Shown here piece by piece: positions 11,351-30,746 of a DNA stretch of 35,000 nt. Origin of the DNA: Neocallimastix lanati (nom. inval.) (lineage: Eukaryota; Neocallimastigomycota; Neocallimastigomycetes; Neocallimastigales; Neocallimastigaceae); assembly GCA_016946835.1 (NCBI GenBank), contig JACVTC010000018.1, positions 195,001 through 230,000 on the forward strand, in the 5' to 3' direction. The notes under the pieces are model-generated. The model was not told the DNA's origin and ran no database searches. It saw only the letters and a list, made by a program, of their open reading frames with translations. Each line of letters opens with the position of its first letter. The first letter of the stretch is position 1. Made by a program: the position numbers and the translations under genes.

Positions 11351-11769
11351 TTCTTTATTAAACTGTAACATATTATCAATACGTTACGTTACATTTACAT
11401 ATTTCACAAAAATCTTTATAATTAATTTTAATTATTAAATTAATAATAAAATGATATACAATAGAAAAATTTTATTTTACTTTATAAAAAAATTCCTTCT
11501 AATAACTTTTAATAAAAAAAAACTAATAATAATAGTAATTACTATTATTTTAATTATATTAATAATAATTTTTAATGTATTAATAATATTTTTAAATGTT
11601 TTAATAATGTTTTTTAAATGTATTAATAATATTTTTAAATGTTTTAATAATGTTTTTTAAATGTATTAATAATAATTAGTAATTAAATATATATATATAT
11701 TTTTTCTCCATTGAACTGAAGCTTTACTATAAGAATTCAACAAAAAAAAATTAATTAAATTCTATCAAA
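10883..11769. other. A/T-rich spacer with short repeats
   Basis: It contains (AATTA)n at about 11118-11145, a T-run of about 28 at 11321-11349, and a 43-bp tandem unit (AATGTATTAATAATATTTTT plus a matching half) repeated about 2.3 times at 11572-11670. The 69-residue ORF at 11451-11660 is a reading of that repeat. No supportable gene. Confidence 0.7.
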
Positions 11770-12983
11770 ATGAATAGCAATAATAATAATAATTATGTTT
11801 ATGTTGTCTATGCCGCCGAAGAAAAAGAAGAAAATCAACCTCTCATTAATCTTAACTGATAATTTCTATTAAGAGTGAGATCCTTTACAGAAAAGAATAA
11901 TATTATATACTCTAAAGATCCTGAAACTACTCTAGTTAATGATATTAATGACGCCTCTGAAGTCTACAGAAAAACTGATGAAATAAATATTAAATATACT
12001 AATTGTAAAAGAAAAATAATTTTTTTACATTATTAATATAAAAAATTATTCAGATATTATTGGCTACGATTAATTAAAAGAAAACAAATATTCATTCACT
12101 TTTAAAAATAAATTTCCAAACATAGAAAATGATTTAAAAATACCACAAGAAATTAATTTAATTAGAGATTTTATTGAAGATGTTTTATTCATTGATGAAG
12201 AGAAGAAAAATTCAAAAGAAACTATTATTCCGAAAGAACTAGAAGATATTAAGGAAGTTTTTGACTAAAAATTGCCTGATGTTTTACCTTCCCATAAAAT
12301 CTACGGTTATGACATAGAATCAAAACCAAATACTACTTTTTTTCTTTGGACCATTATATTCTTTAGCTACCAAAGAATAAGAAACCCTTAAGGAATACAT
12401 TGCTAAATATCTGAAAAAAAAAAATTATTAATCCATCTAAATCTCTCTTTGGTACACCGATATTATTTGTTCCTAAAAAAAAAATGGTTCTCTCCGTTCA
12501 TGTTTGGACTATAGAAATTTAAATTCATATCATACTACCATAAAGAATTCATATTCTTTTCCTTTAATTAAGAATTTTTTGAACAGGGTTCAAGTCTGAT
12601 ACTTCTTTACAAAACTGGATCCTGAAAAACCTTTCATTGTGGAAACAGATGTAAGTGACTTTGCAGCGGGTGCTGTTCTCTTTCAATATTCTGAAAACAA
12701 CAAACTCAATCCTCGTGTGTTTATATCTAAAGATTCAAAAAAATATTGAAGTCCACTACGATAGCTATGAAAAGGAATTACTTGCTATAGTTGTTATAAT
12801 CGCAGCTTTCAAGGAAAGTTGGAATTATCTATAAGGATCCAAAGAATCATTTTAAATTTAAATTTATTGTAATCATAGAAACTTAAAGTTTTCAAGGAAA
12901 CCTGAAGTACTCTCGGATAGGAAAATTCAATGGATCGAATTTTTTTCTATGATTAATTATGATATAGTTTATTATTTTGTTTA
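11770..12983 (+). pseudogene. decayed Ty3/gypsy pol relic, RT core deleted
   Basis: Frame-shifted and stop-riddled pieces of a Ty3/gypsy polyprotein. An opening segment at 11770-11859 (MNSNNNNN...QPLINLN) is followed by RT N-terminal motifs at about 12235-12590 (LPDVLPSHKIYGYDI, INPSKSLFGTPILF, LDYRNLNSYHTTIKNSYSFP). At about 12605 the text jumps from FFTKLDPEKP straight into RNase H motifs (FIVETDVSDFAAGAVLFQYS, then SYEKELLAIVV, then KIQWIEFFSMINYDIVYY), ending near 12983. The central RT, including YxDD, is therefore missing. It is older than every other element in the window. It is diverged from the element at 21632-28642. No LTR on its left side was recognised. Confidence 0.82.
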
Positions 12984-13169
12984 TTTTTGATTTTTATGAT
13001 TAATATTTTTATTTTAGAGAAATAACTAGAATATTTTAAGGTGGACTTTGTTTACAATTAAGGTGTAATTTATTATAAATTTTTACTTTGCATGAGCTTT
13101 TAGTTTTGGATTAGATTAAATTTATTAATTTTACTACGAATTAATTTATAGTTTTTATGTATTTTTTAT
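12984..13169. other. A/T-rich spacer
   Basis: Nothing recognisable between the pol relic and the first LTR. There is no purine-rich tract right before 13170, so the LTR is not obviously the 3' LTR of the relic. Confidence 0.5.
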
Positions 13170-14130
13170 TGTTAAGAATCTATAATTATTTTTAAATAAA
13201 ATAATTATATTTTCTTTGTTAAAGTTATAATTATAACTTTATTTAATTATATAATATTTATTCATTTAAATATTATTAATAATTTATTTAACCCATATTA
13301 AATATTCATTAATTTAATACAACAAAATTTATTTAATTAATTATTATTTATACATTTATTAATAATTATAGTTTATTTAATTATACATTTAATTATTAAA
13401 TTTATTAGTTTTAGTTTATTTATTTAATTAAATTGTAAACAAATATATTATGTATTCTAATATGTATTTTAATAATGTATTCTGTATTTTGTTTATTAAT
13501 ATCATTATGTTATTTTCCTTATTTGTAAATTTATAATTCTATGATCGAAATATCTTTTATTATTTTATTCTTTTATTTTCGATCAATTACATTAGATTAA
13601 CGAATCGGTTAATTAGGGTTTTTCCCAATTACTTCTTAAAAGTAATTGGTTTTACCTAATTGATACGATGATCGATATGGATAGAATATCGATCAAAAAT
13701 CTTATCTAGGTTTTTCTCTCTAATCTTTTCCTAGATAAGAGATTTGTTAAGATTAGAAAACATTTTTTAATTTAACCTTATTTTTCAAAAAAGTATAAAT
13801 AAGGCTCTTGAATTCTCTTTGAGAAATCAAGAGTTATTATTATAACAATTATAATATAGTAATAACATTAATAAATATTTTATATTTCTATTTTAATAAA
13901 ATAAGTTTTAATAAAACAAATTTAAAAATAAAACAAAATAAAATAATCCTTTCTCTTGACAATTCTGTGTTATTAGTTTATTATAATTAGTTATAATAAA
14001 CTCTTTCTTATAAAAGATAAGTATATTTATCCTTTTTTGCTTTCTCAATTTAATAATAATTATTATTTAATTATTATTAAGTTGTAGTTAATAATTTAAT
14101 TATAATTAATTTTATAATTAAATTATTATA
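13170..14130 (+). mobile_element. family B solo LTR, copy 1 (oldest)
   Basis: A 961-bp LTR of the same family as 14775-16316 and 16322-17320. It begins TGTTAAGAATCTATAATTAT, has TATAAAT at 13794-13800, and ends AAATTATTATA where intact copies end AAATTATTACA. The flanks are TTTAT (13165-13169) and TTTAG (14131-14135), a 4-of-5 target duplication consistent with age. It holds the hairpin series shared by the family (for example 13700-13740 and 13805-13833). Confidence 0.8.
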
Positions 14131-14769
14131 TTTAGCTGATAAATAATAATAATATATATTAAGAAATAGTAAAAGATTTTATAATATTTTAAATATTAAA
14201 ATAATTAAATAGTAATAACTTAATAATAATCTTGTTCATAATATTAAATAATTATAATAATTTTTATTATTATAATAATATTATTTAATAATAATATTTA
14301 TATACATTTGATTGGAAAATATAGTTACACCAACTATAATAATAATATAAATATAAAATTTTTTATATGGAATAATTAGTTCTTTAGAAATTAATTTATA
14401 AAATAATTATGAAATTTATTAAGAGAATTTATTTAGAAAAATAATGAATTATAACAATTAAAAATATTTCTCAACGTTGTATAATCAACTATAAAAATAT
14501 TAAATAAAAATTATTATTATAACAAATATATAAAGTTATAAACTATATTATTTATATTATAGTATTTAACTATTTTAATTATTTATAAAAAGAATTATAA
14601 TATTTAATATATAGATTAAATATTATATAAATTTTTAATAAAACATTTTTTTTAAAATAATTAAGTAAATTTAAATATTAAATATCGGTAAAACTTGTTA
14701 AAATAAAACAAGGTAAAACGATATAAAATAAGTTTAAGAAAATAAAATAAATAATACCTTAAACTTATT
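14131..14769. other. A/T-rich block, possibly a badly decayed LTR
   Basis: It starts TTTAGC-TGATAAATAA and ends AAACTTATT directly before ATAGC. The flanking TTAGC (14132-14136) and ATAGC (14770-14774) resemble a worn target duplication, and TGATAA at the left recalls the TGATACG end of family D. The right end is not CA and no family-specific internal motif was matched. I see no gene. Confidence 0.25.
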
Positions 14770-14774
14770 ATAGC

Positions 14775-16316
14775 TGTAAGAATCTATAATTATTTGTTAG
14801 CAAATAATTATATTTTCTTAGTTAAGTTATTATAACTATAACTTTATTTAATTACATATAATATTTATTAAATTTATTTAATTTAATTTTAAATATTCAT
14901 TAATTTAACAAAATTTATTTAATTAATTTTAAATAATATATTTACAATATGCTAAATTCTCTACTGTAACTAATGTATTTTGTATTGTATTCTGTATTTT
15001 ATAATGTATTCTATATTTTATAATGTATTCTGTATTTTATAATGTATTCTGTATTTTATAATGTATTCTGTATTTTATTAACTATTTAATTTTATATTTT
15101 TAATATAAGGATAAATTATATGATCGAAATATCTTTTATTATTTTATTCTTTTATTTTCGATCATTAGATTGGAAAATCGGTTAATTAAGATTTTTTCCA
15201 ATTACTTTTTAGAAGTAATCGGTTTTACTTAATTAATGCGATGATCGATATGGATAGAATATCGATCGAAAACTTATCTAGGTTTTTCTATCTAATCTTT
15301 TCCTAGATAAGAGATTTTTTAAGATTAGAAAACCCTTTCTTATTTAACCTTATTTTCATAAAAAAATATAAATAAGGCTCTTGAGTTCTCTTTGAGAAAT
15401 CAAGAGTTATTATTATAAAAAAACATAGTTATAATAGTAACAATTTTATATTTTTAACTTTAATAAATTAATAAAAATATTTTATTCAAAAACATATTTT
15501 TAAAATCAATTTATACAAACAATTCTTTTCTTACTTTTTGTGTTATTATTATAATTAATTTTATAATAAACTCTACTCTAAAGGTAAAAAAAAATTATTA
15601 TTTTATTTTATTTTCTCAACTTAATGAATTAGTCGTTAAGTTGTATGTTAAAGTTTTTAGATAATTTGGTCTTAACGATTAGGTCAAGATGCCAAATTAT
15701 AGTAATTAATTAATAACTTAATTTTACTCTTATTTAAAACATATTGTTATTAGTAAATTTTATAATTAAGTTTTTATCTAAAATATAAATTTTATTTAAT
15801 CTTAATAATATTTTATTACATTATTATTTTATATAATTATTACTATAATTTAAATTACAATAATCCTACAAAGGATTAATCAAAAGATTTAAACATGTAT
15901 TTATATAAAATAATTAATTATTAAAATATTAATTATTAATATGAATATGTAATAGTATTAATATAAGTTTGATATTGATAATATAAAGTAAGATAGTAAT
16001 ATAAATATTTAATATAAATAAAATATAAGAATATAATATGTAGAAATTAATTTAATATGACAATCACGTGTTTACATTATTTAATATATATTAATTTCAA
16101 TATGTTAATAATATTTAGTAATTAGTTGGCCTAGACTAATTCCTAAATATTTTAATAAAGTTAATTTAATAATAATTATTATATTATTATTTTTTATTAA
16201 TATTGAAATTCAAATAACTGAATTATCGAAATTGAAATTGAATTGAAATTCAGTTATTATCTTAACATTGTAGTTAATAATTCTATTTCGAGTTAGTTCT
16301 TAATAGAATTATTACA
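14775..16316 (+). mobile_element. family B solo LTR, copy 2, interrupted by a family A LTR
   Basis: It begins TGTAAGAATCTATAATTATT and ends AGAATTATTACA. It is flanked by perfect ATAGC duplications (14770-14774 and 16317-16321). Removing the nested LTR (15646-16267) and one TTGTA leaves 915 bp. U3 contains about five copies of a 20-bp unit (TTATAATGTATTCTGTATTT) at about 14985-15080. TATA box TATAAAT lies just before the hairpin at 15378-15406. When this LTR arrived, its right end lay 16 nt from the tRNA-Gly gene (ATAGC plus 11 nt). Confidence 0.92.
15646..16267 (-). mobile_element. family A-related solo LTR nested in B copy 2
   Basis: A 622-bp LTR. On the plus strand it runs TGTTAAAGTT...ATTATCTTAACA, flanked by perfect TTGTA duplications (15641-15645 and 16268-16272). 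It shares the end TTCAGTT-ATTATCTTAACA and the core GTTGGCCTAG (about 16125) with the LTRs at 20925-21628 and 21632-22366. It is more diverged than they are. The remaining B-LTR tail plus ATAGC plus 11 nt puts its insertion exactly 60 nt upstream of the tRNA at that time. Confidence 0.9.
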
Positions 16317-16321
16317 ATAGC

Positions 16322-17320
16322 TGTAATAATTTAATTAAAAAATTATAATTAAATTATTAATCATTAATATTAGCTCTAACTGCTAATATTAAAGGTTTAG
16401 AAAAGAATCATACTTACCTATGGTTCTTTCTAATTATCGAGTTTATTATAACGAATTATAATAGACGAAACACTAAAATTGATAAGGAAAAGTTTTAATT
16501 ATAAAATTTGTTTTATTAAAATAATTTGTTTTATTATTTATTAAAAATTTTAAATGTTAAAACTTATTGTTATTATTATTATATTATAATTGTTATAATA
16601 ATAACTCTTGATTTCTCAAAGAGAACTCAAGAGCCTTATTTATACTTTTTTGTCAAAATAAGGTTAAAATCAAAAGAGGTTCTAATCTTAACAAATCTCT
16701 TATCTAGGAAAAGACTAGAAGAAAAACCTAGATAAGTTTTTTGATCGATATTCTATCCATATCGATCATCGCGTTAATTAAGTAAAACCGATTACTTTTA
16801 AGAAGTAATTGGAAAAACCTTAATTAACCGATTACTTAATCTAATATAATGATCGAAAATAAAAGAATAAAATAATGAAAATTATTTCGATCATAAAATT
16901 TAAAATTTAATCTATTTAGTTCTATTTTATAGAACTTTACATAAAAAATATAAAACAATACATTAATAATAAAATACACGATTAATACAATACAGAATAC
17001 ATGATAGAATACAGAATACATGACAAAATACAGAATAGTGTTTTAGTTTATGATTTAATAAGTGAGAGAAAACTAAAACTAATAAATTTAATAATTAAGT
17101 GAATAATTAAATAAATTTAATATTATTTTAAATGTATAAAAATTATTTGATTAAATAAATTTTTAATATTAAACTAAATAAAATTTTAATATATAATTAA
17201 ATAAATTATTAATTATAATTAATTGTATAAATGAAATATGAGTTAAATAAAAGTTATATTAATTATAACCTAACTAAGAAAATATAATTATTTTGTTAAA
17301 AATAATTATAGATTCTTACA
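16322..17320 (-). mobile_element. family B solo LTR, copy 3, reverse orientation
   Basis: 999 bp. The sense (minus) strand begins TGTAAGAATCTATAATTATT and ends AATTAAATTATTACA. It is flanked by perfect ATAGC duplications (16317-16321 and 17321-17325). It has the same hairpins and TATA as copies 1 and 2, inverted (hairpins at 16699-16736 and 16605-16633). ORFs at 16526-16735 and 16836-17021 are readings through this LTR and not genes. Confidence 0.95.
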
Positions 17321-17326
17321 ATAGCT

Positions 17327-17792
17327 TGATACGGTATTTTATTTATGTATCTAAATTAATATTTATTTATGGGCAATGACAATAAGGAATTATGACAAAA
17401 TAATATATTCTAATATTAAATAGAAATAACACATACAATAATACAAAATAAAGTAATAAATATATTTTTTTAATGTTCTCTTTATTTATTATTAATTATT
17501 AATTATTACATAAATTATTATTATTATTACTCTCTTATATAAATATTATAATTAATTATCTCAAATATATATAATATCTCTTTTTAACTATACTAAAATA
17601 AAATATAAAATAGCTATTTATGTGAATTAATTTATCATAAGTATAAACTTATAAATAAAAGAATTCTCCGTATAATAATTATTATTCTAAAATTATATAT
17701 TATTATAAAATTATTATTGACCAATAATATTTAAGTATTTCTTTAACCTAAAGAATCTACCTAAATACCATTTTTATAGTGGTTACGTATCA
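17327..17792 (-). repeat. element D 3' LTR
   Basis: 466 bp, plus-strand text TGATACGG...TTACGTATCA. It is the same length as the partner at 19770-20235, with scattered substitutions and compensating indels. Confidence 0.95.
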
Positions 17793-17806
17793 AGACGCCC
17801 CCACTT
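17793..17806 (-). other. element D polypurine tract
   Basis: The minus-strand text AAGTGGGGGCGTCT lies immediately before the 3' LTR, where plus-strand DNA synthesis is primed. It resembles the family A tract (GTGGAAGGGCGT) at 22367-22378. Confidence 0.75.
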
Positions 17807-17847
17807 AAATTAGACTTCGTCCCCTGAAGTCTCAATAACAATATAAT

Positions 17848-17881
<34 letters not shown>

Positions 17882-17907
17882 TTTGTTTATTAAAATTTAA
17901 TTATTGG

Positions 17908-17955
<48 letters not shown>

Positions 17956-18111
17956 TTAAATTTTTGAATTAATGATTATTTTAATTTTTGAAATTCGAAA
18001 TCTTGAAATTTCGAATTAATTTAATTTAAATTATTGTTATATATATATAATTATTTATTTATTAATATTTCATCATAATTAAATTATTTATTTATTTTTT
18101 TTTTTTTCCTA
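17807..18111. other. element D 3' untranslated region
   Basis: A/T homopolymers (T-runs at about 17850-17880 and 17920-17948) between the gag stop and the purine tract. There is no room for, or relic of, pol. Confidence 0.6.
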
Positions 18112-19545
18112 TTATTTTTTTTTTTTTTTATGTTTATTATTATTATTACTGTTATTATTGTTATTATTATTATTGTTTTTATTATAATTTATTTCAATAA
18201 CATTATTAACATTTTTATTTTCGTTATTTGTATAATTAGTATTGTTATTAGTATTGTTATTATTAAAACTATTATTATTTCCTAATGAATTTATGTTTCT
18301 ACTATATCCATTATTGTTTTTATTTATATTATTTCCAATTATATTATCCTGAATATTATTTATATTTGAATTAAACGTATTTTCTACACAATTAGTATTT
18401 AAATTATTGTTGAAATTAATTTCATTTCCAATATTAACATCTTTATTTCCTTGCTTATTATAATTTATACCCTGATTATTGCTGATTCTACATTTTATTT
18501 TATTTATATTCTCATTTAAATTACTGTTATTGTTATTGGTACCAAAATTTTTATTTAAATCATAATTACTTTTATATAGATAATTATTTAAATTATTATA
18601 ATTATTATTACCAAAATTATTATTTAAATTATAATTATTTCTATAAATTTCTCTATTTCCATTATGCTTTTTACCAAAACTAATCATGTTATGATGATTT
18701 TCAGCAATATTACTATTTAAATTATAATTTCTACGATAATAATTAATATAGTTTTTATTTCTATCATATGAATTAAATTTATAATTATAATTATTATGGT
18801 TTCCAGGTATAAAATTTCTTCTTTTATTTATTTCCAAAATTCCAGTTCTTTCTAATTTCGCTAATTCTTTAAACGAGTGTCTACAATTAATTGCTTTATG
18901 ACCTAACTCATAGCATCTAAAGCACATAATTTTATTATTCTTATTGTTTTTATTGCTATTTAATTTATTCATTTTGCAATTATTATTATTCCATTTTTGA
19001 TTATTATTCTTATAAATATTATTTAAATTTAAATTTAATTTCTTTTCAATTCTTTCAACTTTTTCTGCATATTTGATAGCTTCTTTTATATCTTCGATTT
19101 CTTCTTCTAATATTCTTAAACAAGGATATATTCTGGACCTGATTGAATTAACATAATTATTAACAGTAATTAATTTCTTTATATTACTATCAATATCATT
19201 ATATTTTCTTAAGTATTTATAATTAAAATTACTAATTGATTCATTTGAATTAATTTTTAAATTAATTAAGTTCCAATATTTTACGTTTGATGTTATTTCT
19301 AGATATTCTTCTAAGGCTATTTTTATTTCTTTTAAGCTAGGAACCTGATTATTTTTTTCCTTTAATTCATCAAGAACATACCTAATTTCTTTATTTACAC
19401 ATTCTTTACATAAAATAAATCTTCTTTCTTGTTCTTTTATATTCCATAATTCAAATAACTCAGTTAATTCTTCTATCCATTCATTGATATCATTATTATA
19501 ATTTTCTAATAATGGTAACGTACTTAATATCTTAAAAACATTCAT
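18112..19545 (-). CDS. gag: element D Gag with CCHC zinc knuckle
   Basis: 477 residues. Residues 1-175 are mostly helical and capsid-like (NDINEWIEELTELFELW near the start), as in Ty3/gypsy or Ty1-type Gag. A zinc knuckle follows at C208-x2-C211-x4-H216-x4-C221. From about 240 the protein is almost all Asn with Lys/Tyr, ending in poly-N and KKKKK. It would form particles and bind the element RNA in the cytoplasm. The ATG lies 224 nt after the 5' LTR. The intact ORF, despite visible LTR divergence, hints that Gag was kept under selection or that the copy is fairly young. There is no pol downstream. Confidence 0.88.
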   Translation of the reverse strand: MNVFKILSTLPLLENYNNDINEWIEELTELFELWNIKEQERRFILCKECVNKEIRYVLDELKEKNNQVPSLKEIKIALEEYLEITSNVKYWNLINLKINSNESISNFNYKYLRKYNDIDSNIKKLITVNNYVNSIRSRIYPCLRILEEEIEDIKEAIKYAEKVERIEKKLNLNLNNIYKNNNQKWNNNNCKMNKLNSNKNNKNNKIMCFRCYELGHKAINCRHSFKELAKLERTGILEINKRRNFIPGNHNNYNYKFNSYDRNKNYINYYRRNYNLNSNIAENHHNMISFGKKHNGNREIYRNNYNLNNNFGNNNYNNLNNYLYKSNYDLNKNFGTNNNNSNLNENINKIKCRISNNQGINYNKQGNKDVNIGNEINFNNNLNTNCVENTFNSNINNIQDNIIGNNINKNNNGYSRNINSLGNNNSFNNNNTNNNTNYTNNENKNVNNVIEINYNKNNNNNNNNNSNNNNKHKKKKK

Positions 19546-19747
19546 CTTTAAAAAATTTTATTTATTCTTATATATTTTTTTATTATAATTTTCTATTTCA
19601 ATTTAATATTATTATAACTATTACTATTATAATTATTAGTAACTAATTTAAACTAATTAAATTCTTTTTATATACATACTAAATAATATTTATTATATAG
19701 ACGTATTATTTTATTAATATTATTTTCATATTATTTTGCTATTGTCA

Positions 19748-19765
19748 CGCCCGGATTCTCCACCA
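19748..19765 (-). other. element D primer-binding site (tRNA type)
   Basis: Four nt inside the 5' LTR (gap AATT), the minus strand reads TGGTGGAGAATCCGGG. It starts with TGG, the complement of the CCA tail, and continues as complement of a plausible acceptor strand (ATTCTCC) and discriminator A. I cannot name the tRNA. Confidence 0.7.
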
Positions 19766-19769
19766 AATT

Positions 19770-20235
19770 TGATACGATATTTTATTTATGTATCTAAATT
19801 AATATTTATTTATGGGCAATGACAATAAGGAATTATGACAAAATAATATATTCTAATATTAAATAGAAATAACACATACAATAATACAAAATAAAGTAAT
19901 AAATATATATTTTTTTAATGTTCTCTTTATTATTAATTATTAATTATTACATCAATTATTATTATTATTACTCTTTTATATAAATATTATAATTAATTAT
20001 CTCAAATATATATAATATCTCTTTTAATTATACTAAAATAAAATATAAAAATAGCTATTTATGTGAATTAATTTATAATAAGTATAAACTTATAAATAAA
20101 AGAATTCCCCGTTTAATAATTATTATTCTAAAATTATATATATTATTCTAAAATTATTATTGACCAATAATATTTAAGTATTTCTTTAACCTAAAGAATC
20201 TACCTAAATACCATTTTTATAGTGGTCACGTATCA
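19770..20235 (-). repeat. element D 5' LTR
   Basis: 466 bp. In sense orientation it begins TGATACGTGACCACTATAAA, so a TATA-like box sits only about 14 nt from the LTR edge. If that box is used, U3 is very short and R-U5 very long. Confidence 0.93.
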
Positions 20236-20924
20236 TAGTGTAAGTGTTGACTAATTAATTAGTCACACTTAACCAAATATAATATAAATATTATATTTAT
20301 TTTTATTATTAATTAAGATTTAAATAATTTTTCAATAAAATAACACTTAATATTATTTAATATACTATAATTTTAATAATTGTTATTAAATAATAAAATA
20401 AAAATAATTATTAATTGATAAAATTAATTTTTTAACTAATTAATAATTAATTATTATGAAATATAAACAATATCTTTAATTAATAACCAATTTCTATTTA
20501 ATATAAATAATTAATCATTTGATTTATCATTAACAATAATACGTGATTAATTATATTAAAACATTTAATATTAATATAATTAATATTAAATTAATATAAA
20601 ATTAGTTAATAATTATAAACTTAAAACATCATAATAAATAATTTCATAAAATATTGGTTAATTGCCAATATTAAATAATATTAAATGATGTTAAATAATA
20701 TTAAATAATATTAAATTATATTAAATAATAAATAATTAATTTATTTTATCTTTCAGGTTTTTTCTCATAATCTTTTTCCTGAAAGAATAACTTTTAATAT
20801 TATGAACAAAAAAAATTATAAATAACCTTGATTTTTTCTATAAAATAAAAATCAAGAGTTATTATTTAGAAAATAATATATAATAAAATTTCTTAATAAA
20901 CTCGAAATATTTTTTATCAATTAT

Positions 20925-21628
20925 TGTTAAGATTTTGATATAATTTATAATTTAAATTTAAATAAAATAATATGTTTTAATAAAAATATTCACTAAGTCG
21001 ATATGTCTATATAGTAATATACTATATAAATATATAATAATAATAATAAATATTTAAATGTTTAGTTTAATAAAAATTTATTTATAATAAACTTTGATAA
21101 TTAGAATTATCAAATTAATTTGATTTTAAATTTATTGATTTTATTTAATAATAAAATATCTATAATATATTACTATTAAGGTAATTTTACAATAACCTTA
21201 CAAAGAACATAAAAGATAGATTTTTACATCTTTCTTTTATACTTTGTAAGTTACATAATAATAATATTTAATTATAAGATAATAATAATATAAATAATAA
21301 TAAAATATAAGGATAAATTTAATTATATAATTAATTTGAATAATTGAATTTAATATAGATATGTTGTAAACATATATAAAAACATAATATAAATAAAATA
21401 CACGTGACGTCAAATGTATCATTGAAATAAATTATTAATATAAACCTTATTTATTAATATTCTCAGAATTATTAGGCCTAAGATAACCCTTTAAATATTA
21501 AACAAGAATTTATATTAATTATTAATTATTTAAATATATATATTATTTATAATTAAATAAATAATATTTTTAATTATTGAAATGTAAATAACTGAAATTG
21601 AGATTTCAATTCAGTTATAATTTCAACA
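20925..21628 (-). mobile_element. family A solo LTR, older copy
   Basis: 704 bp. Plus-strand text TGTTAAGATT...TATAATTTCAACA. The left duplication is ATTAT (20920-20924). The right one is ATT (21629-21631) plus AT (28648-28649), split by the younger element. It has the same TATA/hairpin region (AACCTTACAAAGAAC at about 21194) and AGGCCTA core as the younger LTRs. After rejoining, it inserted exactly 60 nt upstream of the tRNA. The 61-residue ORF at 21237-21422 lies inside it and is not a gene. Confidence 0.9.
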
Positions 21629-21631
21629 ATT

Positions 21632-22366
21632 TGTTAAAAAGTAAACAGATTGAATTTAACGAGGAATCAGGTTGATATATCTATATAATATAACTATATA
21701 GATATAAGTAAATTACTAAAATAAAAGAGTTATAAAGTTAAATTTGTTAATTTAACACTTAATTAAAACTAATAATTGGTTTGATATGATAAAAATTTTT
21801 ATTTATTAATAAAAATATATAGTTATATTATAATAGGTTAACTATAACCTTACAAAGAACAAAAAGATAAATTTGAATTTTCTTTTTATACTTTGTAGGT
21901 TTGAGAATATTGATAATAATAATATAAAGTTGATAATAATAATATTTAGTATAAGAATATGTTTAATATAAATAAATTATATTTTTTAATCTAATATATT
22001 AGCTAATATATATAATATAATATTAAATTTAAATATTTAATATAGTAATTAATAATTAATAATTAATTAAATCAATATAACATAAATTAATACATAAACA
22101 TTAATTTATGAATCAAGGATGACATGACCAAATGATTCATGTTAATAAATATTTTATTTATTAATAATATTTAAGTTTAATATGATATCATTAGAATCAG
22201 TAGGCCTAAGCTGGTCCTAAGATGATCAAATAACTTATAATATTATAAAATAAATAAAATTTAAAGAATAATTAATGAATTATAAATTTTTATTAATTAT
22301 TTTGTTTTTAATAATTTTAATTGAAATTAATTGAAATTGAAATTTAATTCAGTTGTAATTTCAACA
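21632..22366 (-). repeat. family A element 3' LTR
   Basis: 735 bp, TG...CA ends. It differs from the 5' LTR at GATATATCT/GATATATCA and GACATGACC/GACATAACC. Confidence 0.97.
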
Positions 22367-22378
22367 ACGCCCTTCCAC
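22367..22378 (-). other. family A polypurine tract
   Basis: The minus-strand GTGGAAGGGCGT directly abuts the 3' LTR. Confidence 0.75.
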
Positions 22379-22907
22379 AAAAATCGGATTCCAGACGATT
22401 TTGTGTAACGTTACATAAAGAAATTATTATATTTATAAAATTGTATATTTTAAAAAAATTTTTTTTTTTTTTTTTTTTTTTGAAGTAAAAAGGTCACATG
22501 AGTCCTTTAAAGAACACATTACAAGTGGCCATTTCATGGAAATTTCGAAATTGTCAAAATTTACTGAAATTAAAATTTTGTTATAAAATTAAATATCGAG
22601 AAATATAATGGTGTGAATTTTATTAAAAATTTCGTTGAAAAAATGTGAATTTGAAATTTTGAAATTTAAATTGAAATTTCATCTTAATTTTATGCATTAA
22701 ATTGAAAATTTTTAAATATAGTGAAAATTTATAATTTAATGAATATAATAATGTAAAAAATAAATAAAGTTTTATTAAATTTCGATTTTTAAAAATTTTT
22801 GAAATTTTGAAATGTAAAATTTTAAATTAACTAATTTAATTTTGAAATATTATTATTTAATATACTATTTATAGCTTAAGTATAATAATTTTTTTTTTTT
22901 TTTTTTT
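22379..22907. other. family A element 3' untranslated region
   Basis: 529 bp between the pol stop and the purine tract. It has repeated GAAATTT/AAATTTC stretches, T-runs and a GTAACGTTAC palindrome near 22405. No ORF or env-like gene. Confidence 0.6.
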
Positions 22908-25600
22908 TTAATTATAAGAAAGAGAAGTGAATTTTCTATTATTCTTTAAATATTCTTGATATATTCTTTGATTCCTTGGATTATTTTCAACTTCATAAGA
23001 AGGCACCCAATTACTTGAACTTTTATATTTGTATCTAACTCTATATTCGTAGCAGTTTTTCTTGTAGTTTGTCCTAAATCCAGAAATTTCAATAATATCA
23101 TTAATGGATTCATTGTGCGAACTTCTATTTAAAAACTTTTGCGGAGTTGGGACATAAGGTTCCAATTCAGAGATATGAAAGATTGGATGATGTTTTGGAA
23201 AAGGTGACTTTTTAAGATCAATTTTATAATTATTATTCTCTAAAACATCGATTACCTTGTAAGGTCCATATTTGCAAGGAGCGAGTTTAGAACAATCTTC
23301 AATATTTAAGGAAGGAGGTGCTTGAATCCAAACCAAGTCACCTTCTTTTATTACAGGAGGTGGCATCCTTTTCTTATCCGCATAATTTTTATATAATTCT
23401 TTAGATCTTAATAAGACATCTTTAATATGATTAAAACTTGTACTTACATTTTTAATAAATTTACTATTAGTATCAACTTGGGGTAGTAAGAAATATTCGT
23501 CCATAGATGGATGAAATCCATAGTTAATAAAGAAAGGTGTTTCTTTTGTAGATTCATTGACTGAATTATTATAAGCGAACTCTGCAAGATAGATCCAATT
23601 AATCCAATCGTCGTGATAATAAGATCTTGAATAAGCTCTTAAATACTGTTCAATAAAGGAGTTGCATCTCTCAACTTGACCAACAGTCTCATGATGATCT
23701 GTTGTAGCTAATTTGGATTTAATATTAAGTAATTTCATGAATTCCTTCCAAAGTGCACTTGTAAACTGAGGACCTCTATCTGTATACATATCATAAGGAA
23801 GGCCATGTAATTTATAAACATTATTCATAAATGCTTTGGCAGTTTGTTTTGCATCAGGAATTTGTTTGAAAGGTATTAAGTGAATCATTTTAGAGAAACG
23901 ATCCACTACAACCATTATTACCGTATATCCCTTTGAATCCGGGAGGCCACATAAAAAGTCAACTTCTATAGATTTCCAAGGTCTATCAGGTGTTTCCAAC
24001 GGTTGTAGAAAGCCATATTTCCTATGTCTATTAATTTTGTTTCTTGCACAACATTCACAGGAATTGACAAATTTTGTAACATCATCTTGCATTTTGGGCC
24101 ACCAAAAGTTTCTTGTAATTAATTCAAGAGTTCTTTTAATTCCAAGATGACCAGCGGAAGGCTTTTCATGATATTTAGTTAAGATTTCTAATCTTAAAAT
24201 TTCAGGAATATAAATTAAATTATTATATAATATAATATTATCCTTTATTTTGAACTTATTCATTTTCCTAAAGGGTTTATAGGACATATCATTTTTAATA
24301 TTCTGTGGGCTAAAATAGAGTCTAATATCATCAGCTGTGGCATCTGTTTTTGTAGCTTCTATAATTCTTTCTAAAAGATCGCTAACAACACCAATAAAAC
24401 ATGGAACTTTCTTTACATTTTTTATGTCAAGAATATTTTCGGTTTTAGTTTCTTCATTATTTTTTATATAATCTGGTCTTCTTGAAAGAGAATCAGGTTT
24501 TCCATTATTGGAACCTTGTCTATAAATTAATTCAAAATTATATTCTTGGAAGAACATATGCCATCTATGTTGCCTTTGATTACCAATTTTACCACCAAGG
24601 GTATATAATAAGTTCCTATGATCAGTATAAACAGTTACTTTGTATTTCGCACCAAGTAATAAATGTCTCCATGCCAAAAAGGCTTCTCTAATAGCTAACA
24701 ACTCCTTGTCTGTAATAGTATAATTAAATTCTGCACCTTGTAAGCTTCTTGAGAAATATGCAACTGGATGTAATTTATTATTATCATCCTTTTGTGATAA
24801 AACAGCACCAAGGGCAAAGTTACTTGCATCACATTCAACAATAAATGGTTTATTATTATCCGGATGGAATAAAACTGGAGAACTGGTTAATCTTTTCTTT
24901 AATTCTGAGAATGATTCTTCACATTTGTTATTCCAATTAAATTTAATATTTTTTCTGGTTAAATTATGTAAAGGTTTTGCAATTTTTGCAAAATCTTTAA
25001 CAAATCTTCTATAATAATTGCAAAGACCTAAAAACCTCTGTACCTCCTTTAAGTTATTTGGTTGAGGCCAGTCTTTAATTGATTCTATTTTCTTCGGATC
25101 GGTAGTGACACCTTGACCTGATAATACATATCCAAGGAATTCAACTTTCTCTTTATCAAATTCGCATTTTTCTAATTTTGCATATAAGTTATTATTAATT
25201 AATGCTTGCAAAACCTCCCTAACTTGTTTATGATGTTCTTTTAAATCTTTGGAGTAGATTAAAATATCGTCTAAATAAAGAATAACACTTTTTTCTAAAT
25301 ATGGTCTTAGTACCGAATTAATAAACGATTGAAAAGTAGCTGGTGCGTTTTTTAAACCAAATGGCATAACTAAGTATTCATAGTGACCATATTTAGTTCT
25401 GAAAGCTGTCTTGTATTCATCCCCTTCCTTAATACGGATTAAATTATAGGCTGAACGTAAATCTAATTTTGTAAAATATTTTGCTCCTTTAACCTTTTCG
25501 ATAATTTCATTAATAAGAGGTATGGGGTACGAGTTTCTTATAGTAACAGCGTTTAACTTCCTATAGTCTACGCATAACCATCTTTTTTCTTTTGGAATAG
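22908..25600 (-). pseudogene. pol: family A pol, RT/RNase H/integrase/chromodomain part (after frameshift)
   Basis: The first in-frame ATG is at 25367, but the frame is open back to about 25600, where LCVDYRKLN and YFTKLDLRSAYN complete the RT. Numbering from that ATG: MPFGLKNAPATF 1-12; catalytic YLDD 31-34; RNase H D180, E222 and D249; integrase zinc finger H400-x6-H407 and C437-x2-C440; DDE triad D470, D530, E566 (35-residue spacing); GPY 701-703; chromodomain about 756-815. All key residues are present. It would copy element RNA and insert it, with the chromodomain tethering to chromatin. It is out of frame with the protease part upstream because of a -1-type break in an A-run near 25580-25600. 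That break can be a true mutation or an assembly error. Confidence 0.93.
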
Positions 25601-26800
25601 AACTGGATAACCTGCAGGTGATTCAGATGGTCTAATAAATCCTTTTTTTAGGTTTTCTTTTATATATTCTTTCAAAACTTTATTTTCCTCTTCGGTTAAG
25701 GGATAGATTGGACCATAGTGAAGGGAAGCGTCCTTCTCCAGCACTATTTTGCAGTCGGTTAAACGATGTGGGGGAAGTTTATCGGCTTCGGCTTTACTAA
25801 AAACAATAAATAGATCGCGATATTGAGGCGGAATATCTTCAATATTTGGATCTTCATTGTCATTTTTATTAATTTCTTTATTTGATAAGAAGGAATATAT
25901 TAAAAAATTGTAATTATAGTCATTGTTTAAATTAAAATTATTTTTTAAATATTTATTTTGTTTTTTGAAATAATATTTATATTTATTAATAAAATAATGA
26001 TTTTTATTAAAAAATTTTTTATAATTAAATTTATCACAAAATTTTGAAAATTTATTAAGGTTAAGGTTATTAAGTTTTTTATTAAAAAATTTTTTATTAT
26101 AATTAAACTTCTGATCAAATTTTTTGAAATTTTTTGAAAAATTTTTATAATTAAATTTTTTTATTGATTTATTAAAAAGTAAATAATTTTTTAAAATTTT
26201 ATTTTTCATCGACTGTAGATATAAATTGTTTTTGCAATATTTATTAGGATTTTTGTTATTTTTATTTGAAAAATAATAATTTAAGTAAGAATATAATATA
26301 TTCTTATCATAATTATAGTGAATTTTGAATTTTCGCATGAACTGATTACCAAAAAGTAGATCAGTTGGTATGCAATTTGTTATTAGAAATTTTTCATTGT
26401 AATTTTTAAAATAAAATTTTTTATTCTTTTGTATTTTTATTTGAAATTTTAGCCAAACGTACTGATCTATCTTAGTAGTAGAACCAGATATACCTTTGAC
26501 TAAAATTTTATTTTTTAAATTATAAATTTTTAAATTTAGTTTTTGAACTAAATTTTCTGTAATAAAATTACAAAATGATCCAGAATCTAGCATAGATTCA
26601 GATGTAATTTTTTGGTTATTTTTAATTTTTAATTTATTATTATTAATTAGTAGTCTTGTTGGAATGTAGCAATGGAATAAAAGAAAAGTTGAAGGTAGTT
26701 TTTGGGTTGTGATGTTATCAAATGAAGGAAAGTTATAATAAATTGTTTTTACATTTTTTGATGAATTGGACTCCGAGTGAAGTCCTTCATTTAGTTTTTT
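25568..26800 (-). pseudogene. pol: family A pol, protease and RT N-terminus (entered by -1 frameshift)
   Basis: The frame is open for 69 codons from the slippery site at 26800 to the first ATG at 26593, and continues to a stop at 25568. The protease active site LDSGS is at residues 2-6 after that ATG. A Lys/Asn/Phe-rich low-complexity linker (about residues 105-240) separates protease from RT. The RT start reads IPPQYRDLF, LPPHRLTDCKIVLEKDA and GFIRPSESPAGYPVLFQ. The ORF ends prematurely at KKKDGYA, just before the LCVDYR motif found in another frame. The internal ATG is probably not used; translation is expected as Gag-Pol. Confidence 0.9.
26768..26800 (-). promoter_or_regulatory. programmed -1 ribosomal frameshift signal, gag to pol
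   Basis: The minus strand reads gag codons TCA AAA AAC TAA, so the classic heptamer A_AAA_AAC sits right before the gag stop. After an 8-nt spacer (TAAATGAA) comes a 7-bp stem GGACTTC / GGAGTCC with loop ACTC. The -1 frame leads directly into pol, open from 26800. This is a complete signal of the kind used by many retroelements. Confidence 0.88.
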
Positions 26801-27873
26801 GAATTATTATTATTTGTACTATTATTACTGTTATTATTAATTTTATTAAAGTTATTATTATTATGGACTTTATTATAATTATTATTATTATAATATTTGT
26901 TATAATTGTTATTATTATTATATTTATTATTATTGTTGTTGTTGTTATTGTGGACATTAGAAGGCTTTTTCTTTAAATTTTTATTACCATTAGATTTTAA
27001 TTGACCTTTAGATTTCAAGGAATTTTCGTAAAGAATACATCTAGTATAAATAGTACTAAGATCAGAAGGAAATTCATCCATTTTTTCTATTTCTTCCTGG
27101 AACCTTGGGTGCAATCCATTATAAAAGAATAAAACTAAAGCTTCTTCATTCCAATTCAAACATGTTGTAAGGGTTCGAAATTCATCAATATAATCATTAA
27201 TTTTCCCAAATGTGTGAGAAATTTTTGCGAGTTGGATCATGGCTAATTTCTTACTGGCAACATTATTAAAAGCTTTCCTTAATTCTTTAATCAATTCTTC
27301 TAATGTTGCTGGACTTCTATCTTTATATTTGGCATAATACCAATTACGAGCACCATCTCTTAAGCGTGACTTAACATAATTAATTTTTACATCCATAGTA
27401 GATTCACAGTTAGGATAAGTCTTAAAAGTATCTTCACAGAGCTGACAAAAGAGATCGGTTTCCTTAGTATCCCCAGTGAAGAATCCAGGTTCTGGGACTT
27501 CTTGAAGTGTATTGGGAATAGTATTCCTCATTATTACATCATTGTCTGCCTCTCTTCTTGTTGATATAGAAGCGTTATCATCTTGATTTTGAGAAGCATT
27601 AACATTAGGAATAAAATCGAATTTCTGATTTAAAATGCTGGTAATAGAAGAAAGTTGTTTTATGATATTCTTGTTATCCCTATTTAAAGTAAAAAGTTTC
27701 TTTTGAAGATCTTCATTATATTTATTAAAATCTTCTCTTGATAAGAATGTAACTTCTGCATCTTTTGCCAGTTCAGAGACAGTAATCTGAGCGTCTGTTC
27801 TTAGCTTATTTACTTCCGACATAGGAGCAAAGTCAGGATAGGAGTTTGCCCACACGTTATTATAAAGGGACAT
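26791..27873 (-). CDS. gag: family A Gag
   Basis: 360 residues. Residues about 45-82 look like a coiled coil. Residues about 130-290 form a Retrotrans_gag-type capsid domain (EPGFFTGDTKETDLFCQLCE, SRLRDGARNWYYAKYKD, NDYIDEFRTLT, LVLFFYNGLHPRFQEEI). The C-terminus (about 295-360) is Lys- then Asn-rich. No CCHC knuckle is present, so RNA binding probably relies on the basic tail. The start codon lies 34 nt after the 5' LTR, an unusually short leader that includes the primer site. It ends in the slippery sequence. Confidence 0.93.
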   Translation of the reverse strand: MSLYNNVWANSYPDFAPMSEVNKLRTDAQITVSELAKDAEVTFLSREDFNKYNEDLQKKLFTLNRDNKNIIKQLSSITSILNQKFDFIPNVNASQNQDDNASISTRREADNDVIMRNTIPNTLQEVPEPGFFTGDTKETDLFCQLCEDTFKTYPNCESTMDVKINYVKSRLRDGARNWYYAKYKDRSPATLEELIKELRKAFNNVASKKLAMIQLAKISHTFGKINDYIDEFRTLTTCLNWNEEALVLFFYNGLHPRFQEEIEKMDEFPSDLSTIYTRCILYENSLKSKGQLKSNGNKNLKKKPSNVHNNNNNNNNKYNNNNNYNKYYNNNNYNKVHNNNNFNKINNNSNNSTNNNNSKN

Positions 27874-27897
27874 ATCAAGGTGATTCTCTTTTCTTGG

Positions 27898-27907
27898 GTA
27901 AGGTTAT
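27898..27907 (-). other. family A self-priming site
   Basis: The first ten internal bases next to the 5' LTR read ATAACCTTAC on the sense strand. They are exactly complementary to GTAAGGTTAT in the LTR (28120-28129), which lies 37 nt after the TATA box, where the RNA should begin. No TGG-type tRNA site is present. This is the Tf1-type arrangement in which the RNA 5' end primes reverse transcription. Confidence 0.8.
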
Positions 27908-28642
27908 TGTTAAAAAGTAAACAGATTGAATTTAACGAGGAATCAGGTTGATATATCAATATAATATAACTATATAGATATAAGTAAATTACTAAAATAA
28001 AAGAGTTATAAAGTTAAATTTGTTAATTTAACACTTAATTAAAACTAATAATTGGTTTGATATGATAAAAATTTTTATTTATTAATAAAAATATATAGTT
28101 ATATTATAATAGGTTAACTATAACCTTACAAAGAACAAAAAGATAAATTTGAATTTTCTTTTTATACTTTGTAGGTTTGAGAATATTGATAATAATAATA
28201 TAAAGTTGATAATAATAATATTTAGTATAAGAATATGTTTAATATAAATAAATTATATTTTTTAATCTAATATATTAGCTAATATATATAATATAATATT
28301 AAATTTAAATATTTAATATAGTAATTAATAATTAATAATTAATTAAATCAATATAACATAAATTAATACATAAACATTAATTTATGAATCAAGGATGACA
28401 TAACCAAATGATTCATGTTAATAAATATTTTATTTATTAATAATATTTAAGTTTAATATGATATCATTAGAATCAGTAGGCCTAAGCTGGTCCTAAGATG
28501 ATCAAATAACTTATAATATTATAAAATAAATAAAATTTAAAGAATAATTAATGAATTATAAATTTTTATTAATTATTTTGTTTTTAATAATTTTAATTGA
28601 AATTAATTGAAATTGAAATTTAATTCAGTTGTAATTTCAACA
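27908..28642 (-). repeat. family A element 5' LTR with promoter
   Basis: 735 bp. The TATA box (TATAAAAAG, minus strand) is at 28158-28166 and the predicted RNA start near 28129, giving U3 of about 513 bp and R-U5 of about 222 bp. It is nearly identical to the 3' LTR. Confidence 0.96.
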
Positions 28643-28709
28643 CAATTATTGTTATTTTAATAAAAGTTAAGTATTAATTTTGTATTATTACACATAGCTA
28701 TCGAAAGAA

Positions 28710-28780
28710 GCGTTAATAGTATAGAGGTAGAATATTTGCCTTCCAAGCAAATGGCCCGGGTTCGATTCCCGGTTAACGCA
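28710..28780 (+). tRNA. tRNA-Gly (UCC anticodon)
   Basis: A 71-nt cloverleaf without intron. Acceptor GCGTTAA pairs with TTAACGC, discriminator A. Anticodon stem TTTGC/GCAAA with loop CTTCCAA gives UCC, which reads GGA. T arm is CCGGG-TTCGATT-CCCGG. The A box lies around 28717-28727 and the B box GGTTCGATTCC at 28759-28769. It is the reference point of the retrotransposon stack on its left: the nearest insertion's target duplication ends 12 nt before it. The gene itself looks intact and functional. Confidence 0.98.
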
Positions 28781-29699: not shown

Positions 29700-30559
29700 C
29701 AACCCTTACATCAACGTTTTTATAAAATACGCCACATTTTATATATATTCAAAATACAACATTCTGAAATGTAACTTTACGAAATGCACCACATCCATTT
29801 TGGTAAAGTGGGGTATTTCGCAAGGTTGCATTTCACCATTTTTGAAAGCATGTGGCGTATTAAAAAATGTGGCATTTTGCCAAATTGAGAATATTAAATA
29901 AATAAATGAATAAATAAATAAAAATATGAACTATTTTTTTTTTTTTTTTTTTTTTTTTTTATTAGTTTGTTTTTTTTTATAATATTTATTTAATAATCAA
30001 TATTATTTTAATATTATTTTTACAAATAATATATTTTTAATGGAGAGTTGCATTTCCCCAGATTGCATTTCGCCAAGTGGCGTATTATTAAAATGTTGCA
30101 TTTCCCCAAGTTGCATTTCGACAAATGGCTTATTGATATAAGTAAATGAATGAATGAATAAATAAAAATTCAAAATAATTTTTTTAAACTTGTTTTTATT
30201 ATATTTTATAATTAATTATAGATATTTTTTAAAATAAAATAATTATTAATAATATTTAATTATAAAAATAAATTTAATTATAAAGATATATTTTAATATT
30301 TTTTAATCGTCATTATTATTATTAATGACAATCCTTTTATAATTATAGCAATAGTGTTTATATTATTATTTTTTTTTATTAATTATATTACTATATTGTT
30401 TATTTTATTATTATTAATTTTTTTTTTATTTATTACTAAACAATTTATTATTTATTTAAACAGATATTTGTAAAGCTATTTTTATATGAAAAAAAATTTT
30501 TTAATATTTAAATATTTACTTCAAAAATATAAATACATCAATATTAAAAATATTTAATT

Positions 30560-30591
<32 letters not shown>

Positions 30592-30690
30592 TAATTCTCA
30601 ATTTGGCGAAATGCCACATTTTTTAATACGCCACATGCTTTCAAAAAATGGCGAAATGCAACCTGGCGAAATGCCCCACACCCATTTTTA
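29700..30690. repeat. inverted, clustered TTGCATTTCGCCA repeat family
   Basis: Roughly ten occurrences of TTGCATTTCGCCA or its complement TGGCGAAATGCAA lie in three clusters (about 29700-29892, 30049-30135, 30601-30680). Arms 29808-29905 and 30565-30679 are inverted copies of about 100 bp, sharing GTGGGG, GGTTGCATTTC, GAAAGCATGTGGCGTATTAA, TGTGGCATTT and CAAATTGAGAAT, then an AAAT tetranucleotide run. The middle cluster is followed by a similar ATGAATGAATAAATAAA tail. These are the only GC-containing islands in the region. No ORF, no TG...CA ends. Function unknown. Confidence 0.8.
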
Positions 30691-30746
30691 ATATTATGTA
30701 AAATAGTAATAGAATAATTATTTATTTCCTTATTCATTCGTATTTC

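Follow-up and report, generated by a model that had tools for sequence, protein, structure and literature searches.

Long terminal repeat retrotransposons of the gut fungus Neocallimastix lanati occupy two fixed positions upstream of tRNA genes

INTRODUCTION

Insertion of long terminal repeat (LTR) retrotransposons next to tRNA genes has been documented in a small number of yeasts and social amoebae, and targeting of the upstream flank has been described for Ty3, Tj1, and DGLT-A (PMC5911963). In Ty3, as set out in PMC8632968, integrase engages TBP and Brf1, its chromodomain contributes to the spacing, and a 5-bp duplication results from strand transfer at positions -6 and -2 from the transcription start. 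Here we describe a 35,000-nt stretch of DNA (positions 195,001 to 230,000 of contig JACVTC010000018.1, referred to as the window) from the 199-Mb genome of Neocallimastix lanati (Neocallimastigomycota), in which LTR elements of several families are stacked upstream of one tRNA-Gly gene, and we follow these families to other tRNA genes. As in Ty3-like targeting, insertions lie at a fixed distance, 12 to 18 nt before the mature tRNA (slot 1), and carry a 5-bp target site duplication (TSD). A second position, about 66 nt upstream of the mature tRNA (slot 2), is taken by a separate set of elements, which we call A-type.

RESULTS

A 7-bp target upstream of one tRNA-Gly gene has been used repeatedly

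The tRNA-Gly gene was the sole Rfam match in positions 10000 to 31000 of the window (Table 1). Reading outward from it, we recognized layers C, D, B3, and B2, probably F, and then B1. The initial annotation had claimed a 5-bp duplication 11 to 17 nt before this gene for each of B2, B3, D, and C, and exact reading confirmed the claim: all four duplications fall within the heptamer CATAGCT, and the tRNA-side LTR ends of B2, B3, D, and C lie 16, 16, 15, and 17 nt from the gene, respectively. The two copies of ATAGC around B2 were read at 14770-14774 and 16317-16321, and the two copies of CATAG around C at 20234-20238 and 28693-28697. It had also been claimed that the duplications of D and C become perfect only when later insertions are removed. 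This stood for D, which is flanked by TAGCT on the left and TAGTG on the right until removal of C restores TAGCT on the right, completed at 28695-28699; it did not stand for C, whose duplication is perfect as it is. The presence of three registers (CATAG, ATAGC, and TAGCT) argues against a single event that was then copied.

B2 and C are longer than the typical LTRs of their families (about 910 nt for B and 749 nt for C) because A-type elements have inserted in them. The divergence of paired LTRs fits the order of the layers, the D pair being 96% identical and that of A', the youngest element, 99.7% identical. Layer F, its boundaries drawn from its end adjoining the D copies at loci L161 and L166, ends 15 nt from tRNA-Gly when later layers are left out and is likely a fifth layer of the stack.

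At the same locus, slot 2 has been re-used within two bases. The solo A-type LTR A2, 49 nt from the end of B2, was 65 nt from tRNA-Gly when it inserted; A1b, 48 nt from the end of C, also lies 65 nt from the gene; and A', which sits at the end of A1b and whose TSD consists of the last CA of A1b plus ATT, was 67 nt away when inserted. The earlier reading of a target site for B, C, and D missed this second sharp position, which lies at ~66 nt and is where the A-type elements insert. We had considered A' as an untargeted control family and dropped it from that role when it was found to be targeted to slot 2.

TABLE 1 Features of the window in order of position
Feature	Description	Coordinates	Strand	TSD	Basis
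B1	Older B-like LTR, 76% to typical B LTR; outermost recognized layer	13173..14128	+		
F	Probable solo LTR of TAATAAGTTTAAGG family	about 14137..14770	-		Inferred
B2	Solo LTR, 98% to typical B; holds A2	14775..16316	+	ATAGC	
A2	Solo A-type LTR within B2	15646..16267	+	TTGTA	
B3	B-like solo LTR, 76%; orientation opposite to B2	16322..17320	-	ATAGC (both sides)	
D	Gag-only LTR element	17327..20235	-	TAGCT	
D ORF	477-aa open reading frame (ORF) with one CX2CX4HX4C knuckle	18112..19545	-		Knuckle by eye
C	Solo LTR interrupted by A1b and A'; 96% to typical C	20239..28692	+	CATAG	
A1b	Solo A-type LTR within C	20925..21628	+	ATTAT	
A'	Ty3/gypsy-type element	21632..28642	-	CAATT	
A' ORF	Part of reverse transcriptase, RNase H, H2C2, rve, SH3, C-terminal chromodomain-like fold	22908..25367	-		
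CATAGCT	Re-used 7-bp target, -17 to -11 from tRNA-Gly	28693..28699	+		Direct reading
tRNA-Gly(TCC)	Target gene	28710..28780	+		ARAGORN; Rfam RF00005, 67 bits

LTR ends lie 12 to 18 nt before tRNA genes across the genome

Using tRNA sequence alone, we collected 53 first or single transcription units. Exclusion of four query-biased loci (L001 to L004) and two duplicates (L123 and L126) left 47, the intron-suspect L089 also being dropped; 42 of the 47 were Gly, Cys, Asn, or Arg units (17 Gly, 14 Cys, 6 Arg, and 5 Asn), and Ala, Thr, Glu, Val, and a Cys-like Phe were represented once each. The sample covers 37 of 40 tRNA-Gly places and 11 of 63 places on a second tRNA list. A third sample took the first 40 of 100 listed places (2010 were counted), and 14 of these gave ARAGORN calls (5 canonical tRNAs, 8 heads of short interspersed elements [SINEs], and 1 suspect). 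Homology breakpoints were scored where at least 22 of the 25 nt on the left and no more than 5 of the 10 nt on the right were alike, with low-complexity words dropped; this test replaced a BLAST scan of the AT-rich flanks and a pairwise 30-mer scan, both of which were noisy. Automatic selection of a single end for each unit was abandoned because shifted controls revealed an edge effect, and termini were grouped by complete linkage because single linkage merged unlike AT-rich ends.

The genome-wide distance check proposed with the initial annotation returned a sharp peak: a breakpoint 12 to 18 nt upstream was present in 27 of the 47 units chosen by tRNA alone when at least two supporting loci were required and in 32 when one sufficed. 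Other 7-nt windows between 19 and 158 nt upstream held breakpoints in 0 to 4 units each, except for the window at 61 to 67 nt, with 7, some of which arise because another copy of that LTR is interrupted there. Inspection by eye placed an LTR-like end 12 to 18 nt upstream in 44 of the 47 units (mode, 14 nt; none in 3); at L007, for example, the LTR ends 12 nt from the tRNA. Eleven termini each precede at least two units, often of differing isotypes (3 of the 11 groups include L001, L002, or L004), and since an LTR has two ends, at least six families occupy slot 1. LTR ends were found before Gly, Cys, Asn, Arg, Ala, Val, Thr, Glu, Ser, Gln, and Trp genes. In the tRNA gene pairs encountered (Cys-Gly, Asn-Arg, and Ser-Cys), the LTR end lies upstream of the first, as expected if a single initiation complex serves the pair. 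Among tRNA-derived SINE heads from a B-box sample, 1 of 10 had an LTR end, at about 15 to 16 nt.

Copying of tRNA genes together with their upstream LTRs, as blocks, around the genome could formally produce such a pattern, and L122, L123, and L126 are indeed near-identical blocks, as the tRNA arrays on contig C555 and the tRNA-Gln repeats might also be taken to indicate. However, the 12 to 18 nt separating LTR end and tRNA are not the same from unit to unit, the same LTR end precedes different isotypes, and TSD registers vary within one stack, so that we regard block duplication as scarcely credible as a general explanation.

Flanks of LTR copies point to re-use of slot 1 in both orientations

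We then read the same relationship from the LTR side. For D, the right ends of 20 of the 38 listed copies outside the window were fetched and two internal flanks (L151 and L154) dropped. TG, the usual LTR start, stood at offset 3 to 6 in 15 of the 18 remaining outer flanks, at offset 4 in ten of them, against a background of 0.09 to 0.13 (P = 2.4e-11). The corresponding tally for B and C, from which internal, short, and duplicate flanks and the window's own copies were left out, gave 52 of 75 (32 of 41 for B and 20 of 34 for C), and the remaining flanks include tRNA-Ser, -Gln, -Ala (two), and -Trp genes 15 to 19 nt away. Repeated use of a 5-bp duplication, with a shift of no more than one or two bases, would be expected to leave 3 to 6 nt between LTRs.

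The 5' end of B faces the tRNA at L004, L131, L013, and L037 and its 3' end does so at L002 and L109; for C, the 5' end faces the tRNA at L042, L044, and L061 and the 3' end at L001 and L138. Either LTR end can thus face the gene, and orientation is free. The proposal that a single site before a tRNA gene is re-used by several LTR families, inserted either way round, therefore holds in the sampled loci genome-wide. Compared by coordinates, D copies gave no pair closer than 3 kb with the first tRNA list and pairs at 565, 2703, and 3008 nt with the second; these would be deeper layers.

Broad insertion followed by loss of copies elsewhere, with the flanks of tRNA genes as safe places (they are called safe havens in PMC8632968), would also leave LTRs near tRNA genes. 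Such sorting should not by itself confine insertions to 7 nt in a genome of 199 Mb, and the best listed copies of A', B, and C are 95 to 100% identical to those in the window, which leaves little time for it; we consider selection without targeting highly improbable.

A-type elements use a second slot near 66 nt

Slot-2 distances at the query-biased loci L001 (which is the A' of the window) to L004 were 67, 65, 66, and 67 nt, respectively. At other loci, A-type ends lay 66 nt (L111), 65 nt (L114), and 63 nt (L124) from the tRNA. With A2 and A1b in the window and with L085, the ten tRNA-visible or reconstructed cases spanned 63 to 69 nt. L085 (about 376-520) is unusual in that an LTR interrupts the tRNA gene itself at +5; other LTR ends lie 16 nt and, for the A-type end, 69 nt from the virtual start of the gene, as if the ruler still worked despite the interruption. 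We rejected L018 as a case of two A2 elements five bases apart, since the second start lies in an ordinary slot-1 LTR (compare L139).

Of 29 A-type end matches, inspection by eye showed that 13 face the end of an LTR in slot 1; the others included internal or far ends. The interval from the A-type end to the slot-1 LTR end was 47 to 53 nt (mean, 50.0; standard deviation, 1.7; n = 13, with A1b taken without A'). In a test by coordinates, we compared 110 A-type LTRs (33 of 40 A2, 39 of 40 A1b, and 38 of 40 A' matches, after removal of copies from the window itself and of six partial A2 matches) with 103 tRNA starts. Three upstream pairs closer than 5 kb were found, each at 66 nt; one of these, L003, is query biased, and the other two, on C555 with Rfam-found tRNAs, are independent of the query. 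Downstream pairs lay at 323, 375, and 915 nt and came from two LTRs. Comparison with 80 further tRNA-Ala or tRNA-Gln places added one A2 at 2494 nt upstream, which may belong to an older layer; A' and A1b were absent from the 5 kb to either side. Over all 183 tRNA starts, the upstream A-type pairs closer than 5 kb therefore numbered four (66, 66, 66, and 2494 nt). Given the breakpoint, flank, and coordinate tallies, chance is excluded as the source of the insertion stack at tRNA-Gly.

The distance in slot 2 could be measured either from the tRNA gene or from the LTR end lying in slot 1. Regression of slot-2 on slot-1 distance over the ten cases gave a slope of 0.34 +/- 0.28; the P value was 0.046 for a slope of 1 (LTR as ruler) and 0.25 for a slope of 0 (tRNA as ruler). 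The P value for a slope of 1 was 0.012 without L085 and 0.228 without L001 to L004. The tRNA is favored over the LTR end as the ruler, though not decisively.

This comparison bears on a more general alternative, namely, that LTR termini are themselves the target and merely lie near tRNA genes. In most outer flanks of B, C, and D a further LTR begins, and the resolved slot-2 insertions lie 47 to 53 nt inside slot-1 LTRs, as such a preference would have it. However, the neighboring LTRs are of many unlike sequences, the tRNA-adjacent layer keeps its 12 to 18 nt to the gene in every family, the tRNA-side copy of the duplication is the one re-used for D and C at the window locus, and slot-2 distance follows the tRNA over the LTR end, if weakly. 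Recognition of LTR termini is, in our judgment, improbable.

The A' integrase carries a chromodomain-like tail

Pfam models placed RNase H before integrase in A', B, and C and identified H2C2, rve, and gypsy-type SH3 domains. The rve scores exceeded the cutoff of 32.6 for A' (41.9) and B (33.6) and fell just under it for C (31.9), and the RNase H-integrase piece of C matched the Ty3 chain of structure 7q5b (E = 6.5e-60). A', B, and C are Ty3/gypsy LTR elements. The A' product ends in a predicted chromodomain-like fold (residues about 753 to 810); the best structural match of the C-terminal model was again 7q5b, and a PDB sequence search with the tail returned nothing of note. The integrases of B and C have no chromodomain after SH3 and stop soon after an FHISQLEPY motif, 18 residues beyond it in five C copies and 11 in one B copy. 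In D, the 477-aa CCHC frame is the only ORF of at least 100 aa between the LTRs; it had no Pfam match at an E value of 0.001, and no pol domains were found.

Self-complementary runs begin directly (0 nt) after the 5' LTR in A' (10 nt), B (12 nt), and C (19 nt). The corresponding maxima in shuffled sequence were 11, 12, and 13 nt, so that by length alone only C goes beyond chance; A', B, and C may be self-primed. D has no self-complementary primer site (longest self-complement, 6 nt). Unlike A', B, and C, it has a tRNA-type primer site beginning TGG 4 nt after the LTR, for which the best tRNA among those compared matched at 13 of 18 positions and a host primer was not identified.

Other features of the window and the genome

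A 2208-aa ORF on the minus strand (window positions 3439-10065) has relatives in Piromyces sp. E2 and Anaeromyces robustus; its seven matches carry no precomputed Pfam domain. Decayed coding remains at 11700-13000 resemble a pol fragment by eye, and downstream of tRNA-Gly, at 29700-30700, short GC-richer repeats (gtggcgtatt and catttcgcca) were seen by eye in direct and inverted order.

Elsewhere, contigs C188 and C252 carry tRNA-Gln genes, identical over 72 to 74 nt, every about 11 kb and 12.7 kb, respectively; the pattern on these small contigs resembles a long tandem repeat, possibly ribosomal DNA. At C555:329729-333608, tRNA genes recur every about 540 bp, and at the copy L146, a tRNA-Arg, slot 1 holds no LTR end. 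Many of the B-box matches belong to a dispersed SINE of tRNA origin that begins GCCATGTTGGTCCAG (L070, L072, L076, L079, L091, L092, L096, L103, L104, and L105). L104 and L056 have an LTR end at slot 1.

DISCUSSION

The positions, duplications, and re-use of these insertions, their spread over tRNA genes, and their division into two classes are direct observations. It is, we believe, probable that the RNA polymerase III (Pol III) initiation complex directs these Ty3/gypsy-type elements, and the gag-only D, to two slots. Slot 1 is taken by other families besides B, C, and D, in either orientation, and slot 2 by A-type elements, with D as a gag-only passenger among its Ty3/gypsy-type neighbors. 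Each insertion leaves a 5-bp duplication and an unchanged distance to the tRNA, so that the site is regenerated for further use and the stack grows outward. Guidance by TFIIIB or a related factor would be consistent with this pattern: the tether may be TFIIIB (TBP-Brf1-Bdp1), placed by TFIIIC, with slot 1 at its gene-side edge and slot 2 at its upstream side, and the chromodomain-like tail of the A-type integrase may help to set the longer distance. With a transcription start near -10, slot 1 would match the slot of Ty3, and TFIIIB would separate it from slot 2.

A more specific version, which we offer only tentatively and would not bet on, is that two docking geometries flank TFIIIB, an integrase without a chromodomain acting at about -15 and one with a chromodomain-like tail at about -66; the tail would pick the slot, and the stacks would be a base-resolution fossil footprint of TFIIIB. 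We tried and rejected slots that mirror each other about TFIIIB: if the Ty3 figures of PMC8632968 are combined with a start near -10, slot 1 is mirrored near -53, not -66, and no symmetry is therefore claimed. It is also conceivable, though unlikely, that a nucleosome or an upstream DNA element, instead of TFIIIB, determines slot 2. Ty1 is described as inserting in nucleosomal DNA upstream of tRNA genes (PMC3545840), but the 63- to 69-nt spread of slot 2 is far narrower than the 1-kb periodic zone of Ty1. As for a DNA element, the underlying sequence is whatever LTR is there, and no shared element was seen.

Most sampled tRNA units of this large AT-rich genome carry LTR ends in slot 1, with many families sharing the slot. 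Because the target is remade at each insertion, the stacks preserve the order in which elements integrated and provide a ruler independent of the underlying sequence. They let natural variation alone probe which part of integrase sets the distance, and they offer a footprint of Pol III factors in Neocallimastigomycota.

Ty3 of Saccharomyces cerevisiae is primed by a host tRNA, whereas A', B, and C are seemingly self-primed. It resembles the elements described here in its Ty3/gypsy pol order, its 5-bp TSD, and its position about 15 nt before the mature tRNA, and a structure places its integrase on TBP-Brf1 (PMC8632968, PMC5006619). The chromodomain of Ty3 integrase is described as a ruler for the equivalent of slot 1; B and C, in contrast, use slot 1 without a chromodomain, and A', with its chromodomain-like tail, uses -66 instead. 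Tj1 of Schizosaccharomyces japonicus is likewise a Ty3/gypsy element that inserts just upstream of tRNA genes, and its reverse transcription is self-primed, as that of A', B, and C may be. Its insertions are reported to lie 5 to 11 nt before the mature RNA and, at Pol III genes, always to point the same way (PMC4600332), compared with 12 to 18 nt and both orientations here. DGLT-A of Dictyostelium, a Ty3/gypsy element without a chromodomain that inserts 13 to 33 nt (mean, 15) upstream in either orientation (PMC5006619, PMC5911963), differs in that its host is a social amoeba and not a fungus and in that, in the accounts available, no second upstream LTR slot is described. A second upstream window, about 39 to 64 nt before tRNA genes, is used by TRE5 and NLTR-B of dictyostelids (PMC5911963, PMC5006619); those are non-LTR retrotransposons, whereas LTR elements are found here at 63 to 69 nt. 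Neither the available portions of PMC5911963 and PMC5006619 nor a limited literature search yielded an LTR slot at about 66 nt, and the same limited search found no report of tRNA-targeting LTR elements in gut fungi. Slot 1 is known behavior extended to a new phylum and to many families, and the precise second slot, at ~66 nt, appears to be new.

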